From a virus, in IMG/VR virus record IMGVR_UViG_3300045999_013652, positions 1-28,495 of that record: 28,495 nucleotides of DNA. One strand, written 5' to 3'. Positions 4,651 to 28,408 of the stretch are shown one piece after another. Both the position numbers and the translations under genes were made by a program. The notes under the pieces are model-generated. The model was not told the origin of the DNA, did not search any database, and saw only the letters and a list, made by a program, of their open reading frames with translations. Position 1 is the first letter of the stretch. Each line of letters opens with the position of its first letter.

Positions 4651-4932
4651 TTAAGCTATTTCCATAGTAACACTGAGACCGTTGGATTTCAATTTACTAT
4701 ACATTTTTTGTATAGTTTCATGGTCACCCCTTTTAACATCACACTTACCAGTGAAATGTACTATGTGAGCACATTGGGAAGCTTGTTCTGGTCCATGGTC
4801 GCAATATTTGATTAAACAGTTTATTACATGTTCAAAGGAATTATAATCATCATTGTGAAGGATTAGAATGTAGGGTTTACTCAAGACTTCTTCTACTTGA
4901 TAACTGGTTTGTTCTCTTGTAATTGTTGACAT
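4651..4932 (-). CDS. clpS: ClpS-type Clp protease adaptor
   Basis: A 93-aa protein covering the whole ClpS core. ClpS brings proteins with N-degron (bulky N-terminal) residues to the ClpA/ClpC unfoldase for degradation. The substrate pocket is intact: HNDDYNSFEHV matches the NDD-x(4)-E/D-x-V signature, and CAHIVHFTGKC carries the pocket His. At the gate position where E. coli ClpS has Met40 there is Phe, a feature I associate with Bacteroidota ClpS, as is the GKC-x-VK-x-G ending. The N-terminal extension is about 20 residues, so it could still reach a Clp ATPase. An AT-box sits 3 nt before the ATG. It probably came from a host. It could retune or compete with host N-degron degradation. Confidence 0.93.
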   Translation of the reverse strand: MSTITREQTSYQVEEVLSKPYILILHNDDYNSFEHVINCLIKYCDHGPEQASQCAHIVHFTGKCDVKRGDHETIQKMYSKLKSNGLSVTMEIA

Positions 4933-24707: not shown

Positions 24708-24760
24708 ATCTGTTTTAAAAAAGTTACCCTTTTGTTTTTATTTAACTTTTGTTTTTGACT

Positions 24761-24798: not shown

Positions 24799-25188
24799 AT
24801 GAGATATATTAAATATTTTTTTGAAGCTAAATCAGACAAACCAAAAGTTAAAAAACATGACATAGATGGGTTTGTTGTTCTACAAGGAAAAGATGCTTCT
24901 GCTAATGAATATTTAACCTTAGAAGTTGCAAATGAGGATGATATTTGGATGCATGCTAAGGGGGTGCCAGGCAGTCACATAATCATCAAGATAAAAGAAA
25001 AGATACCAACTGAAACAACTATTCAACGTGTTGCAGAGATTGCTGCTAAGAATAGTAAATCTACAGAAGATATGGTAAAGGTTGTTTATTGTAAGAAGAA
25101 ATTTGTTACAAAGGAACCTGGTATGAACACTGGTCAAGTAAAAGTTGATTATATCAATGCAAATGAAATAATTGTCCCTAAAAATTAA
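24799..25188 (+). CDS. Stand-alone NFACT-R domain protein (ribosome quality-control type)
   Basis: A 129-aa protein, almost all NFACT-R. This is the RNA/tRNA-binding domain of RqcH/Tae2/Rqc2, which act on stalled large ribosomal subunits and help add C-terminal tails. Signatures: DGFVVLQGKDASANEYL (the G-x-N-x-x-x-N-(D/E)-x-L start), DDIWMHAKGVPGSHIIIK (the diagnostic W-x-H-(x)n-G-S-H), IQRVAEIAAKNSKS, and a VVYCKKKFVTKEPGMNTGQV end. The NFACT-N and coiled-coil parts of RqcH are absent. The frame is open farther upstream, but only the ATG at 24799 follows the promoter box and starts near the domain. It begins MRYIKYFFEAKSDK, a possible capsid-leader-like segment. Its stop overlaps the AT-box of the peptidase gene. 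Confidence 0.85.
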   Translation: MRYIKYFFEAKSDKPKVKKHDIDGFVVLQGKDASANEYLTLEVANEDDIWMHAKGVPGSHIIIKIKEKIPTETTIQRVAEIAAKNSKSTEDMVKVVYCKKKFVTKEPGMNTGQVKVDYINANEIIVPKN

Positions 25189-25195
25189 TATATAA
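25185..25195 (+). promoter_or_regulatory. AT-box embedding the NFACT-R stop codon
   Basis: TTAATATATAA includes the TAA stop of the NFACT-R gene and ends 4 nt before the ATG at 25200. Same arrangement as at 7598 and 13807. Confidence 0.5.
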
Positions 25196-25199
25196 ATGG

Positions 25200-26573
25200 A
25201 TGGCAAAGAATAAGAAAAATCAAAATAATTCACAAGCCCCACTTATAAAGTTTAGTGATGATTTTTGGATAATGTTGGATAAGATTGCCCAAGTAGATAA
25301 TTCTGAAATAGCTTGGTCTTTATATGAATTAGATTCAAACCCCCTTGTTAAAAACATAATGCGGGTTAGTAAAGTAGATATTTCTGAAAAAGAAAGTAGG
25401 TTTTCTGTAACTATTTCAGGAAGTCAGGTTGATGTGAGAATCACTTCTTTTTTGAAAAATTATTTTGAAGACCAATTTTCAGATGATAAGATACAGAAAT
25501 TTATAAGGTCTTATAACAGACTGATATCAGGAAGTGATGATGTGGAAGATGAGGATACTAAACAAATTGAAATCAAAGAATTTAACTATGACCCATCAGA
25601 TATCAAATCTACATTTTTATCACTTGTCAGTGAAACATATCCATATGGATATGAAGAAGAAGTTGTGAAATTTTTACCATCTTTTTTAAAAAGAGACAAA
25701 CACGGAAATTACTACCATTTGATTGGCACTTCAGATACAGCATTCACTTGTCATTTGGATACGGCTTCAAGAACTAAATCAAAAGTAAAACTTAGGGAAT
25801 TTGAAAAAGATGGTCAGACTTTTATCAAAACAGATGGAAGTTCTATATTGGGCGCTGATGACAAAGCTGGTGTTACAGTTTTGCTTTATATGATTCACAA
25901 TAATGTACCAGGTGTTTACTGGTTCTTCATTGGTGAGGAGAGGGGTGGTATTGGATCTAGAGATGTGGCTAAGACTTATGATGATTATTCATTTATGAAA
26001 GATGTAAAGAAAATAGTATCCTTTGATAGAAGGAATTACTATTCAGTAATTACGTCTCAGATGGGTGTTTCTTGTTGTTCAAATGAATTTGCACAATCTC
26101 TTTGTGATGAACTAAATAAAAGTGGTCTGAAGTTGACTTTGGACCCCACTGGAATCTTCACAGACTCAGCCAGTTTCATTGATTTAATACCAGAGTGTAC
26201 CAATGTATCAGTTGGATATTTTGATGAGCACAGACACACAGAATTGCAAAATATAACCTATTTAAAAAAGTTATGTAAAGCAGCAGTGGTTTGTGATTGG
26301 GATAAATTGGTTGTGAAAAGAAAAATTGGTATAGATGAGGAAGTTTCCAAAAAGTATGCTAGAATGGTTGGTGATACAAGAAGACTCAAAACAAATAATA
26401 AAATTAAGTTTTCAAGTGAGGGAGGCAATTTGTTTTATGAAATTGATATAATAAATGGTGAACTAAATGATTTTCATGAGGATATGGTTCAATTAGAAAG
26501 ATTATTTGCTCAATACAGACACCAACCAAGTATCTCATTCCATGAGAATACAATAAAAATTAAATTTGACTGA
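25200..26573 (+). CDS. M20/M28/M42-like zinc aminopeptidase-type protein
   Basis: A 457-aa protein with a co-catalytic two-zinc peptidase core at about residues 135-365. CHLDTAS (H185, D187), ILGADDKAGV (D220), FFIGEERGGIGS (E246/E247), SFDRR (D276) and FDEHRHTE (H344/H346) give the usual metal and base residues. Members remove amino acids or cleave short peptides. Residues 1-130 are an acidic, phage-specific N-terminal domain, and the C-terminal 90 residues are another extension, so it may act in a complex. It lies 11 nt after the NFACT-R gene on the same strand and is followed directly by 26573 and then the tmRNA. All metal ligands seem present, so activity is likely. The natural substrate is unknown. 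Confidence 0.85.
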   Translation: MAKNKKNQNNSQAPLIKFSDDFWIMLDKIAQVDNSEIAWSLYELDSNPLVKNIMRVSKVDISEKESRFSVTISGSQVDVRITSFLKNYFEDQFSDDKIQKFIRSYNRLISGSDDVEDEDTKQIEIKEFNYDPSDIKSTFLSLVSETYPYGYEEEVVKFLPSFLKRDKHGNYYHLIGTSDTAFTCHLDTASRTKSKVKLREFEKDGQTFIKTDGSSILGADDKAGVTVLLYMIHNNVPGVYWFFIGEERGGIGSRDVAKTYDDYSFMKDVKKIVSFDRRNYYSVITSQMGVSCCSNEFAQSLCDELNKSGLKLTLDPTGIFTDSASFIDLIPECTNVSVGYFDEHRHTELQNITYLKKLCKAAVVCDWDKLVVKRKIGIDEEVSKKYARMVGDTRRLKTNNKIKFSSEGGNLFYEIDIINGELNDFHEDMVQLERLFAQYRHQPSISFHENTIKIKFD

Positions 26574-27019
26574 TGGAGTGGAATAAACATATCAAAAAAT
26601 TTGAGAAATATGATGACCCAGATGATTTTGAATTTGATTTTTCAGATGAGTTGTCGCCTAAGAAATATAGTAAATATGGTGATGATGAAGAAGTTGATAA
26701 TGAATTAAAAGCAGCATTTGAGCACTTAGCATCTACTATAAGACAAATGATTAGAAATGCTGGTCTAAAAAATTCAACAGTTACTGTACATGATAAAGAT
26801 TTTGTTATGGAATTTATTTTAGAACAAAATCAAAAGTTCTCAAAGTTTATGTCAATCATTGGTTTGATGAAAAAAATTCATCAAGATATTTTAATTCAGT
26901 ACGAACCTGCTGTTGATTTGTGGTATACCAAAGACAAAAAACCACTTTTAACAGTAGATTTTTATTATAAAGAGGGTAAGAGTGGTAATTTTAAATGGTC
27001 AGAAGACATACCTTTTTAA
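26573..27019 (+). CDS. Hypothetical phage protein with capsid-leader-like N-terminus
   Basis: A 148-aa protein whose ATG overlaps the peptidase stop by 1 nt (TGATG), so the two are translationally coupled. The first 40 residues are very acidic (DDPDDFEFDFSDEL). The start MEWNKHIKKFEKYDD has the H-I-K-K-F pattern of other N-termini in this window. Residues 60-120 are helical and 125-148 strand-rich. No family is recognised. It is the last protein gene before the tmRNA, from which a separate AT-box divides it. Confidence 0.7.
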   Translation: MEWNKHIKKFEKYDDPDDFEFDFSDELSPKKYSKYGDDEEVDNELKAAFEHLASTIRQMIRNAGLKNSTVTVHDKDFVMEFILEQNQKFSKFMSIIGLMKKIHQDILIQYEPAVDLWYTKDKKPLLTVDFYYKEGKSGNFKWSEDIPF

Positions 27020-27040
27020 ACTTTTTTGTTTTTTTCAGAT

Positions 27041-27051
27041 AAAATATATAC
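27041..27051 (+). promoter_or_regulatory. AT-box upstream of tmRNA
   Basis: AAAATATATAC lies 14 nt before the mature 5' end of the tmRNA, suggesting late expression from its own promoter in addition to read-through. Confidence 0.45.
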
Positions 27052-27065
27052 TTTTGTAAACTAAT

Positions 27066-27418
27066 GGGGGCGACTTGGAATAGATTCGCGATGTAAGTTT
27101 AGGGATGCAGGCATTGGGTGATATCGACCAATTAAATAAGGTATCAAAGCTGTAAATGGCAACACAAACGAAGTAGCTAGCAAAGAAGAATTAGTATTTG
27201 CCCTACGCAACAACCAACTCAAGGTAAACGAGGTAGCTTCTGTAGCTTAATAGTTTCCAACAGTAATGAGTCTGTAAAACTCACGATGTTATCTGTCAGT
27301 TAGAATCGTAAAATCAAATTGAATATTTTGTCAGTTTAAGAAAAAATTGACTAAGCTTGTGAAAGAGTTTTTAGGTTTAGTTGAGGAAGACGTGGGTTCG
27401 AATCCCTCCGCCTCCACA
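27066..27418 (+). ncRNA. ssrA: Transfer-messenger RNA (ssrA)
   Basis: A complete tmRNA of about 353 nt. The tRNA-like ends pair: GGGGGCG (27066-27072) with CGCCTCC (27409-27415), then discriminator A; CCA is not encoded (the next bases are CAA). The T arm, GTGGGTTCGAATCCCTC, has one internal U-U mismatch. The 5' half has the typical GACTTGGAATAGATTCGCGATG, and the 3' side CTAAGCTTGTGAAAGAGTTTTTAG is the conserved tmRNA core. An internal open frame encodes the tag. tmRNA frees stalled ribosomes and marks the protein for Clp/Lon-type degradation. Bounded by an AT-box and a perfect terminator. Boundaries are from pairing and could be off by a base or two at the 3' end. Confidence 0.95.
27158..27253 (+). 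other. tmRNA tag reading frame (long variant)
   Basis: Reading from GGC at 27158 gives 30 codons before the double stop TAA TAG. The peptide begins GNTNEVAS, passes through KEELVFALRNNQ and ends VNEVASVA. The resume codon is placed by similarity to Bacteroidota tmRNAs, whose tag begins GETN or GENN right after TAAAT. Usual bacterial tags are about 8-12 residues. The NEVAS block occurs twice (near the start and near the end), as if the frame grew by duplication. The end is VA, not the usual AA. Confidence 0.75.
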
Positions 27419-27422
27419 AAAG

Positions 27423-27452
27423 AAAAACCCACCAAATTTGGTGGGTTTTTTT
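27423..27452 (+). terminator. Intrinsic terminator after tmRNA
   Basis: A 28-bp perfect palindrome (AAAAACCCACCAAA then TTTGGTGGGTTTTT) with extra Ts follows the tmRNA 3' end by 4 nt. Confidence 0.9.
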
Positions 27453-27518: not shown

Positions 27519-28229
27519 ATGGGAAAAAAATGGACAGATGAAACAAGGATATTGTTTGAAAAGAAAAAAGAATTAGGTATATCAAGATTATCAATTGCAT
27601 TGTGTAATAATTACACCATAAATAAATATCAACTCATTTATGATGGTGTTCTGGTGGGGTCATTCAAAACTTGGCAAGATGCATTTCAGACAATAGATGA
27701 TGTAAAGGAAAGGGGTATAAAAATAGTAAGGAGTGAAAATAGGCGAATTTTAAAAGAATTGGAAAAAAATGGTGATCAGTTGCTATGTTATCGTTGTAAT
27801 ACTTACAGAAATACAGAAGATTTTAAATGGGGACATAAATACTGTAATAATTGTGCGATGGAACAGAAAAAGGAATATTACTATCTGAATAAATATGAAA
27901 TTTCAAGTAATAAATATCTCTCATATGAAAAATATTTTAGAGGTTTAATAAATAAAAGGGGGAGAAGTAATTTTATATCAGTAGAAGATTTAATTGGTCT
28001 TTTAGAAAAACAGGACTATAAATGTGCTATCACTAAACAAGATTTCGTTATGGAAAAAGGAAGTCCAAAATTACCATCTATAGATAGAATTATACCAGGT
28101 AACGATAATGGAACTTATACTATAGATAATGTACAAATAATTTGGCATGGTTTGAACGCCTTCAAAAATGTGTGGAGTATGGACTTTATATATGAATGTT
28201 GCGAACATATAATGAAAAATAGAAATTAG
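27519..28229 (+). CDS. HNH-type endonuclease with N-terminal DNA-binding-like domain
   Basis: A 236-aa protein. The C-terminal half is a His-Me finger nuclease: CAITKQDF, SIDRIIPGNDNGTYTIDNVQ and WHGLNAFKN match the pattern S-(I/L)-D-R-I-x-P-G-x-Y-T-x-(D/E)-N-V-Q-(x)n-N-x-x-K. CYRC...YCNNC (about residues 89-112) is a four-Cys zinc site. The N-terminal 80 residues are an unnamed domain. Such proteins are free-standing homing nucleases, and this one sits next to a tmRNA gene, a common target of mobile elements. Its stop interlocks with the convergent 28226 gene in TTAG. Confidence 0.82.
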   Translation: MGKKWTDETRILFEKKKELGISRLSIALCNNYTINKYQLIYDGVLVGSFKTWQDAFQTIDDVKERGIKIVRSENRRILKELEKNGDQLLCYRCNTYRNTEDFKWGHKYCNNCAMEQKKEYYYLNKYEISSNKYLSYEKYFRGLINKRGRSNFISVEDLIGLLEKQDYKCAITKQDFVMEKGSPKLPSIDRIIPGNDNGTYTIDNVQIIWHGLNAFKNVWSMDFIYECCEHIMKNRN

Positions 28230-28408
28230 GACTTATATTTTCCACCACTACGTTTCCTTTTACAATATTGCTTCTGTGAAAATCCAAGATTGCGACTGCT
28301 ACAATTTATATTTTTCTTGTATTTAACAGACCATCTGGATTTCATACCCTTTCTTGGTTTGTTATATCCTTCAGTGATGAAGTCTTCATATGATAGTATA
28401 TTTTCCAT
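28226..28408 (-). CDS. Small basic internal head protein with capsid-targeting leader
   Basis: A 60-aa protein in two parts. Residues 1-13, MENILSYEDFITE, resemble the capsid-targeting leaders of T4 internal proteins (which begin MKTYQEFIAE) and end in I-T-E before Gly14, the (I/L)-x-E sequence that T4 gp21 cuts. Residues 14-60 are strongly basic (many Lys and Arg, two Cys), as in T4 internal proteins IPI-IPIII, which are packaged with the DNA and injected. I infer a cleaved, DNA-associated capsid protein. There is no direct homology evidence. It is coupled to the upstream zinc-finger gene (2-nt gap). Confidence 0.6.
   Translation of the reverse strand: MENILSYEDFITEGYNKPRKGMKSRWSVKYKKNINCSSRNLGFSQKQYCKRKRSGGKYKS

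Follow-up and report, generated by a model that had tools for sequence, protein, structure and literature searches.

A conserved huge-phage cassette of a stand-alone NFACT-R protein, a peptidase, a small protein and a tmRNA, with a possible role in ribosome rescue

Why would a phage carry an isolated NFACT-R domain, otherwise a part of RqcH, in one row with a peptidase, a small protein and a transfer-messenger RNA (tmRNA)? The four elements follow one another on the plus strand of IMGVR_UViG_3300045999_013652, a 28,495-base IMG/VR fragment (hereafter the window) of a T4-like myovirus that encodes a gp20-type portal, a gp21-type prohead protease and a gp23 capsid protein. The NFACT-R and peptidase genes are 11 nt apart, the peptidase and small-protein genes share one base at the stop (-1 nt), and the tmRNA begins ~46 nt further on. 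An initial annotation, made from the sequence of the window, had read this run as a possible translation-quality-control unit. Its four elements are confirmed in place (Table 1) by open reading frames (ORFs), by Pfam, PHROG and PDB matches, and by ARAGORN and Rfam; a terminator-like hairpin is present where it had put a terminator, and the clpS gene that it had named elsewhere in the window is genuine. With moderate confidence, we favor the reading that this is a conserved ribosome-rescue cassette, with phage-dedicated trans-translation as its core and the NFACT-R protein and peptidase as accessories that may be functionally coupled to it.

The order of the genes is retained across a clade of huge phages, and related phages do not carry them apart. 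Relatives comprise 80 IMG/VR loci, found by an NFACT-R search with an alignment query, to which a phage collection added the 642-kb LR756502 and the 634-kb LR745206. Of 88 related loci, 84 have NFACT-R, peptidase and small protein in this order, the remaining four being truncated at contig ends, and the spacing of the protein genes ranges from -4 to +58 nt. The tmRNA is present at 50 of 55 non-identical loci by word-7 blastn and iterative nhmmer, usually 30-170 nt past the small-protein gene. Four of the other five are truncated at contig ends, and the fifth, L004, has an inverted tmRNA ~3 kb away, as seen in the near-identical copy L005. The tmRNA is seen at every non-identical locus with sufficient downstream sequence and is inverted in two phages. 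Starting instead from the tag peptide, an independent scan recovered 57 contigs; where at least 2.5 kb precede the tag, ~28 of 30 contigs have the three proteins upstream and in order, and the other two carry an inverted tmRNA. Because the three-protein order recurs and the tmRNA follows wherever the sequence suffices, the arrangement is not due to chance. The cassette belongs to a clade of Mahaphage-type huge phages, whose hosts are most likely Bacteroidota. The Mahaphage clade, for which Bacteroidetes are the predicted hosts, includes the four largest genomes described by Al-Shayeb et al. 2020 (PMC7162821). In one 17-kb stretch around the best peptidase match in each of two Mahaphages (636 and 735 kb), the cassette was not detected.

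Neighborhood could also have a more trivial origin. The block lies directly behind gp23 at most loci, T4-like phages have syntenic head clusters, and the tmRNA has a promoter of its own, as would be expected if the trio and the tmRNA shared no function and traveled with a conserved head gene cluster. We consider this somewhat unlikely, given the tight packing of the protein genes and the fact that the four elements stay together when they are away from gp23, as in the window lineage and at L008, L009, L091, L092 and L134.

The tmRNA is under strong selection. In the window it scores 74.6 bits against Rfam RF00023 (E 1.7e-27; gathering threshold 47), and it is the least altered molecule of the set. 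The tmRNA of a second phage genome, G005, reaches 58 bits, and nearly all other relatives fall below the threshold or are missed; ARAGORN reports none outside the window and the contig near-identical to it, to which Rfam adds L008. The resulting picture, a tmRNA restricted to four close relatives, was overturned by the word-7 blastn and iterative nhmmer searches. ARAGORN at low stringency (-ps70, -ps50) returned only noise, and the matches of a loose T-arm pattern scan were mostly unrelated. Both programs miss most relatives because the T-arm and D-loop have been rebuilt. The canonical UUCRANY T-loop, near-canonical in the window, is replaced in most relatives by GGCAGUA or a similar loop on a 6-bp stem, and 21 different T-stems, all fully paired, are found. 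In the same molecules the D-loop UGGAAU has become UAGAAU. The 7-bp acceptor is fully paired and G3-U70 is present in 44 of 44 complete tmRNAs (GU in 41 of 41 in the alignment). RNAalifold predicted 41 pairs from 41 sequences, and 25 of these pairs have changed on both sides. The covariation score of acceptor and T-stem is 0.332 as opposed to 0.109 after shuffling; none of 500 shuffles scored as high, and sliding abolishes the signal. A decaying copy of a tmRNA is ruled out by this covariation and by the open tag frame.

The architecture is that of the bacterial tmRNA/SmpB system, including an alanine acceptor with G3-U70, the pseudoknot PK1, and an internal tag frame with its stop. Unlike known tmRNAs, the phage form combines a rebuilt T-arm and an altered D-loop with a 27-30-aa tag and a fixed place beside NFACT-R. 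The tag consensus is approximately GKTNEVGTREDLVAALQNNMILVEDLATV and includes ...EDLVAALQNN...; the frame, which follows a resume codon and ends in a stop, stays open in all 50 sequences (two of them truncated at contig ends), whereas the other two frames are closed. Four Bacteroidota genomes have ordinary 9-residue tags (GENNYALAA, GERQYALAA, GNTQYAMAA and GDNNFAMAA). Phage and Bacteroidota tags share the initial glycine, but the latter end in ALAA or AMAA, while the phage tags end in VA (20 of 50), TV (15) or LV (8), and lack the ClpXP-type ...AA end that is usual, though not strictly defining, for a tmRNA tag. Derivation of the tag from a phage protein was considered and rejected, as no match was found among the ORFs of the relatives.

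Huge phages have already been reported to encode tmRNA and SmpB (Al-Shayeb 2020, PMC7162821), and ~2.3% of phages carry a tmRNA (Melnitz survey, PMC9004378). Such phage tmRNAs have so far been noted singly, with neither a constant neighborhood nor an explanation. For the NFACT-R cassette, the rebuilt T-arm and the long tag, no description was found in the literature searched. The rebuilt T-arm and the long conserved tag escape most standard annotation, and the cassette is kept throughout a large clade among the largest known phages, which implies that phage trans-translation is commoner and more specialized than surveys indicate.

Two further genes of the pathway are encoded by these phages. 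SmpB (PF01668, E ~1e-50) is present in five of five large relatives searched, and ClpS, present in the window, was found in three of three relatives checked, with 67-77% identity. The initial annotation's broader proposal, that the phage carries its own ribosome-rescue set, gains from these genes, from the linkage and from the selection on the tmRNA; the co-regulation that it inferred is doubtful, and NFACT-R cannot tail with alanine by itself, as detailed below. Overall, a translation-rescue role of the cassette is partly supported. In the mechanism that we envisage, the tmRNA would be expressed from its own host-type promoter and charged with alanine through its G3-U70 acceptor. Phage SmpB, its presumed partner, would deliver it to ribosomes stalled on broken mRNA, and the phage-specific tag of 27-30 residues would be added to the stalled product, yielding chimeric proteins whose C-termini carry GKTNEVGTREDLVAALQNN... 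The NFACT-R protein would most likely dock on the large subunit, as its domain does within RqcH, and might clear or capture obstructed 50S subunits or keep host RqcH off them. The peptidase and its coupled small partner would most likely trim or recycle tagged or released peptides. A plausible need exists, as host mRNA decay during infection may leave many ribosomes on broken mRNA.

The tmRNA appears to be transcribed from a promoter of its own. The pattern TTTG-N18-22-TAnnTTTG occurs in 28 of 49 regions upstream of the tmRNA (0.11 expected), and TAnnTTTG by itself in 38 of 49 (4.5 expected). This promoter type is typical of Bacteroidota. The same upstream comparison of relatives revealed no comparable promoter conserved 5' of NFACT-R; the palindromic promoter-like box described earlier, TATTTAATATATATTAAATA, is present as sequence at 24760 in the window. 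With a promoter for the tmRNA itself and none conserved before NFACT-R, co-transcription of all four elements is not supported, and their proposed co-regulation as one run is doubtful. Readthrough into the tmRNA from the upstream genes is possible.

The NFACT-R protein, which starts at an ATG and has B. subtilis RqcH as its best PDB match, is homologous to the NFACT-R domain of RqcH and NEMF (Rqc2). It differs from them in comprising only this C-terminal domain, without NFACT-N, the helix-hairpin-helix (HhH) or the coiled coil. No NFACT-N match (PF05833) was obtained in five phage genomes, and a full RqcH encoded elsewhere in the phage was sought and not found in five large relatives. Because NFACT-N is missing both from the gene and from the genomes searched, the phage protein cannot by itself carry out alanine tailing. 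Exactly one NFACT-R gene is found per genome in the large relatives, a count that covered four of the five and others besides. The phage proteins form one clade (98/96), and their nearest cellular neighbors are Bacteroidota RqcH and a stand-alone 124-aa protein from Bacteroidales (L170). The latter is encoded at L170 4956-5330, with a type I restriction system and a gene resembling uracil-DNA glycosylase next to it. At L004, L010 and other loci, the NFACT-R frame remains open for at least 100 aa upstream with homologous sequence, suggestive of a fused domain or an overlapping gene.

The NFACT-R domain of RqcH is located close to the A-site finger on the 50S (PMC8012679), and by this analogy docking on the ribosome is the simplest reading of the isolated domain. 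The same position would suit a decoy that takes the place of RqcH on the 50S subunit and blocks host alanine tailing, leaving the field to the tmRNA pathway of the phage. Retention of the NFACT-R domain alone, with no NFACT-N in the five phage genomes, would fit such a role, and some Bacteroidota do carry RqcH. We nevertheless judge a decoy to be quite improbable. Binding of RqcH requires its other domains, which contact uL11 and tRNA (PMC8373112); some Bacteroidota have no match to the family (as in a Bacteroides control genome), and a blocker would be useless there; and a stand-alone relative exists in a cell (L170).

The peptidase belongs to the M42/M28/M20 fold, with Foldseek matches to TET/M42 and PepT. 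It is assigned to PHROG 4191 ('peptidase') and matches PepT/tripeptidase sequences. Pfam M28 stays below its cut-off, and the enzyme is placed in clan MH rather than in one family of that clan. H185, D187, D220, E246, E247, D276 and H344, which correspond to the expected metal and catalytic positions, are invariant in 33 peptidase sequences. Given these ligand positions and the fold, the enzyme is probably active. It thus shares the fold, the PepT-like motif and the metal/catalytic positions of clan MH (M20 PepT, M28, M42/TET), and differs in having a further domain at its N-terminus and a small partner whose gene is translationally coupled. At L125, L135, L138, L139, L143 and L169, a second peptidase paralogue separates the tmRNA from the small-protein gene.

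This small partner consists of a disordered acidic N-terminal part, an alpha-beta-beta-alpha-beta-beta core (AlphaFold pLDDT >90) and an acidic tail. Foldseek yielded no confident fold match, its weak matches to H-NOX and others being discarded, and a PDB search with the small-protein profile gave nothing meaningful. The protein ends in P[FWY] after acidic residues in 48 of 50 relatives, and single-stranded DNA-binding proteins (SSBs) of Bacteroidota end in DDLPF. Identity with an SSB was rejected, as there is no match to the Pfam OB-fold family PF00436 and no SSB was found in five phage genomes; an SSB-like tail (DDIPF/DLPF) without an SSB domain might be a mimic that docks on host SSB-binding repair proteins. 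In L160 and L163, the peptidase and small protein lie in one frame, which was considered as Rosetta-stone support; an internal start or cleavage-like motif is present there, and the argument was set aside as weak.

A different role, which the initial annotation had not considered, is raised by the N-termini of the encoded proteins. The motif MK.(I/L)K.(F/Y)..F.E begins 82 of 912 ORFs in LR756502, where 10.3 are expected and 50 shuffles gave at most 16, and 34 of 508 ORFs in G005, where 6.2 are expected. At ~7-9% of ORFs, spread over many unrelated families in LR756502 (also W01) and G005, this would imply dozens of ejected proteins per virion. The NFACT-R N-terminus outscores 99.88% of internal-methionine controls, and 48 of 50 relatives have a similar one. 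The small protein also carries the motif, while the peptidase mostly does not, with clear exceptions at L095, L141 and L152. In T4, residues 4 and 7 of a 10-residue sequence direct targeting, and an L/I-x-E motif directs cleavage (PMC9026906). The likeness to T4 internal proteins covers a short N-terminal motif in which positions ~4 and ~7 are hydrophobic or aromatic, a [hydrophobic]-x-E site, and the presence of a gp21-type protease and gp23. The motif sequence is not identical, though, the carrier proteins are unrelated to T4 internal proteins, and packaging is read from the motif itself.

These features suggest that the three proteins could be head-internal, packaged and ejected like T4 IPI-III and Alt. 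The N-terminal motif would target NFACT-R and the small protein to the prohead, the gp21-type protease would cut behind [F/L]xE, and both proteins would be ejected along with the DNA, so that NFACT-R could act at once on host ribosomes or nucleic acid; delivery, not neighborhood, would then be the key. Besides the genome-wide enrichment, the clear motif in some peptidases and the T4 analogy, the frequent position directly behind gp23 and a W01 protein (80294) with gp23-like sequence right after the motif glutamate speak for this account. It leaves the tmRNA unexplained, it reads cleavage and packaging from a short motif, and the NFACT-R start is uncertain in L004 and L010, where the frame is open upstream. 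Overall, virion delivery of NFACT-R and the small protein is possible, and the full account is a tentative one that is compatible with a ribosome-rescue cassette. A bolder combination of both, which we consider unlikely, is a self-contained, orthogonal viral trans-translation system whose re-engineered tmRNA elbow would be read only by phage SmpB, with the tag serving as a handle for some phage pathway rather than a ClpXP degron. NFACT-R and the small protein would arrive in the virion and seize stalled ribosomes within the first minutes of infection, and the peptidase would process the tagged products.

Several observations weigh against the ribosome-rescue cassette that we prefer. The tmRNA is tied less closely to the three proteins than they are to one another, being 0.6-2.2 kb distant or inverted in some relatives, and its own promoter loosens the tie further. 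NFACT-R lacks the parts needed for alanine tailing, and the targeting-like N-termini raise the prospect that two of the proteins instead have a role within the virion or exert one from it. The peptidase need not serve ribosome rescue, since these genomes encode paralogues of it at other sites and many phages that lack NFACT-R have relatives of it. The role of the non-standard tag, the orthogonality of phage SmpB and tmRNA to the host, and the action of isolated NFACT-R on the ribosome are all testable.

Table 1. Positions of the cassette and associated features in the window; a slash marks the inferred cleavage site.
Feature	Position	Strand	Evidence
Stand-alone NFACT-R domain protein, 129 aa	24799..25188	+	PF05670 5.5e-15; RqcH residues 455-550 4e-18; kept at 88 viral loci
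Capsid-targeting-like N-terminus MRYIKYFFE/A of NFACT-R protein, cleavage after E inferred	24799..24825	+	Motif enrichment and control scoring
Metallopeptidase, M20/M28/M42 fold with ~130-aa N-terminal domain	25200..26573	+	PHROG 4191 1.4e-69; PepT-like ILGADDKAG; Foldseek
Small protein, 148 aa	26573..27019	+	ORF; AlphaFold core; conserved in 50 relatives
Acidic tail with Pro-Phe end (EDIPF) of small protein	27002..27016	+	P[FWY] end in 48/50 relatives; resembles bacterial SSB tip
Presumed Bacteroidota-type promoter TTTG-N20-TACTTTTG just 5' of tmRNA	27025..27056	+	Sequence; pattern in 28/49 relatives
tmRNA (ssrA)	27066..27416 or 27417	+	ARAGORN; Rfam; covariation in 41 relatives
Tag reading frame GNTNEVASKEELVFALRNNQLKVNEVASVA plus stops	27158..27253	+	ARAGORN; clade-conserved 27-30 aa tag
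tmRNA T-arm, near-canonical TTCGAAT loop in window	27392..27408	+	Sequence and comparison with relatives
Terminator-like hairpin 3' of tmRNA	27423..27452	+	Sequence; palindrome scan lists it on - strand
ClpS, outside cassette, phage protein-degradation gene set	4651..4932	-	PF02617 4.9e-17; 67-77% identical copies in three relatives

Two small ORFs with such N-termini lie outside the cassette genes. LR756502 encodes, at 80294-80539 (+), an 81-aa protein, MKHLKNYKSFNE/DATANASTAGMGGVSPAQP, whose part after the motif resembles the N-terminal region of gp23 (SINE/NAYVNASNVAGMG). This likeness hints at where gp23 is matured and at a small head protein derived from gp23. In the window, a 60-aa ORF at 28226-28408 (-), MENILSYEDFITE/G, is a near-match to T4 MKTYQEFIAE/A and is also found near the cassette in G006.

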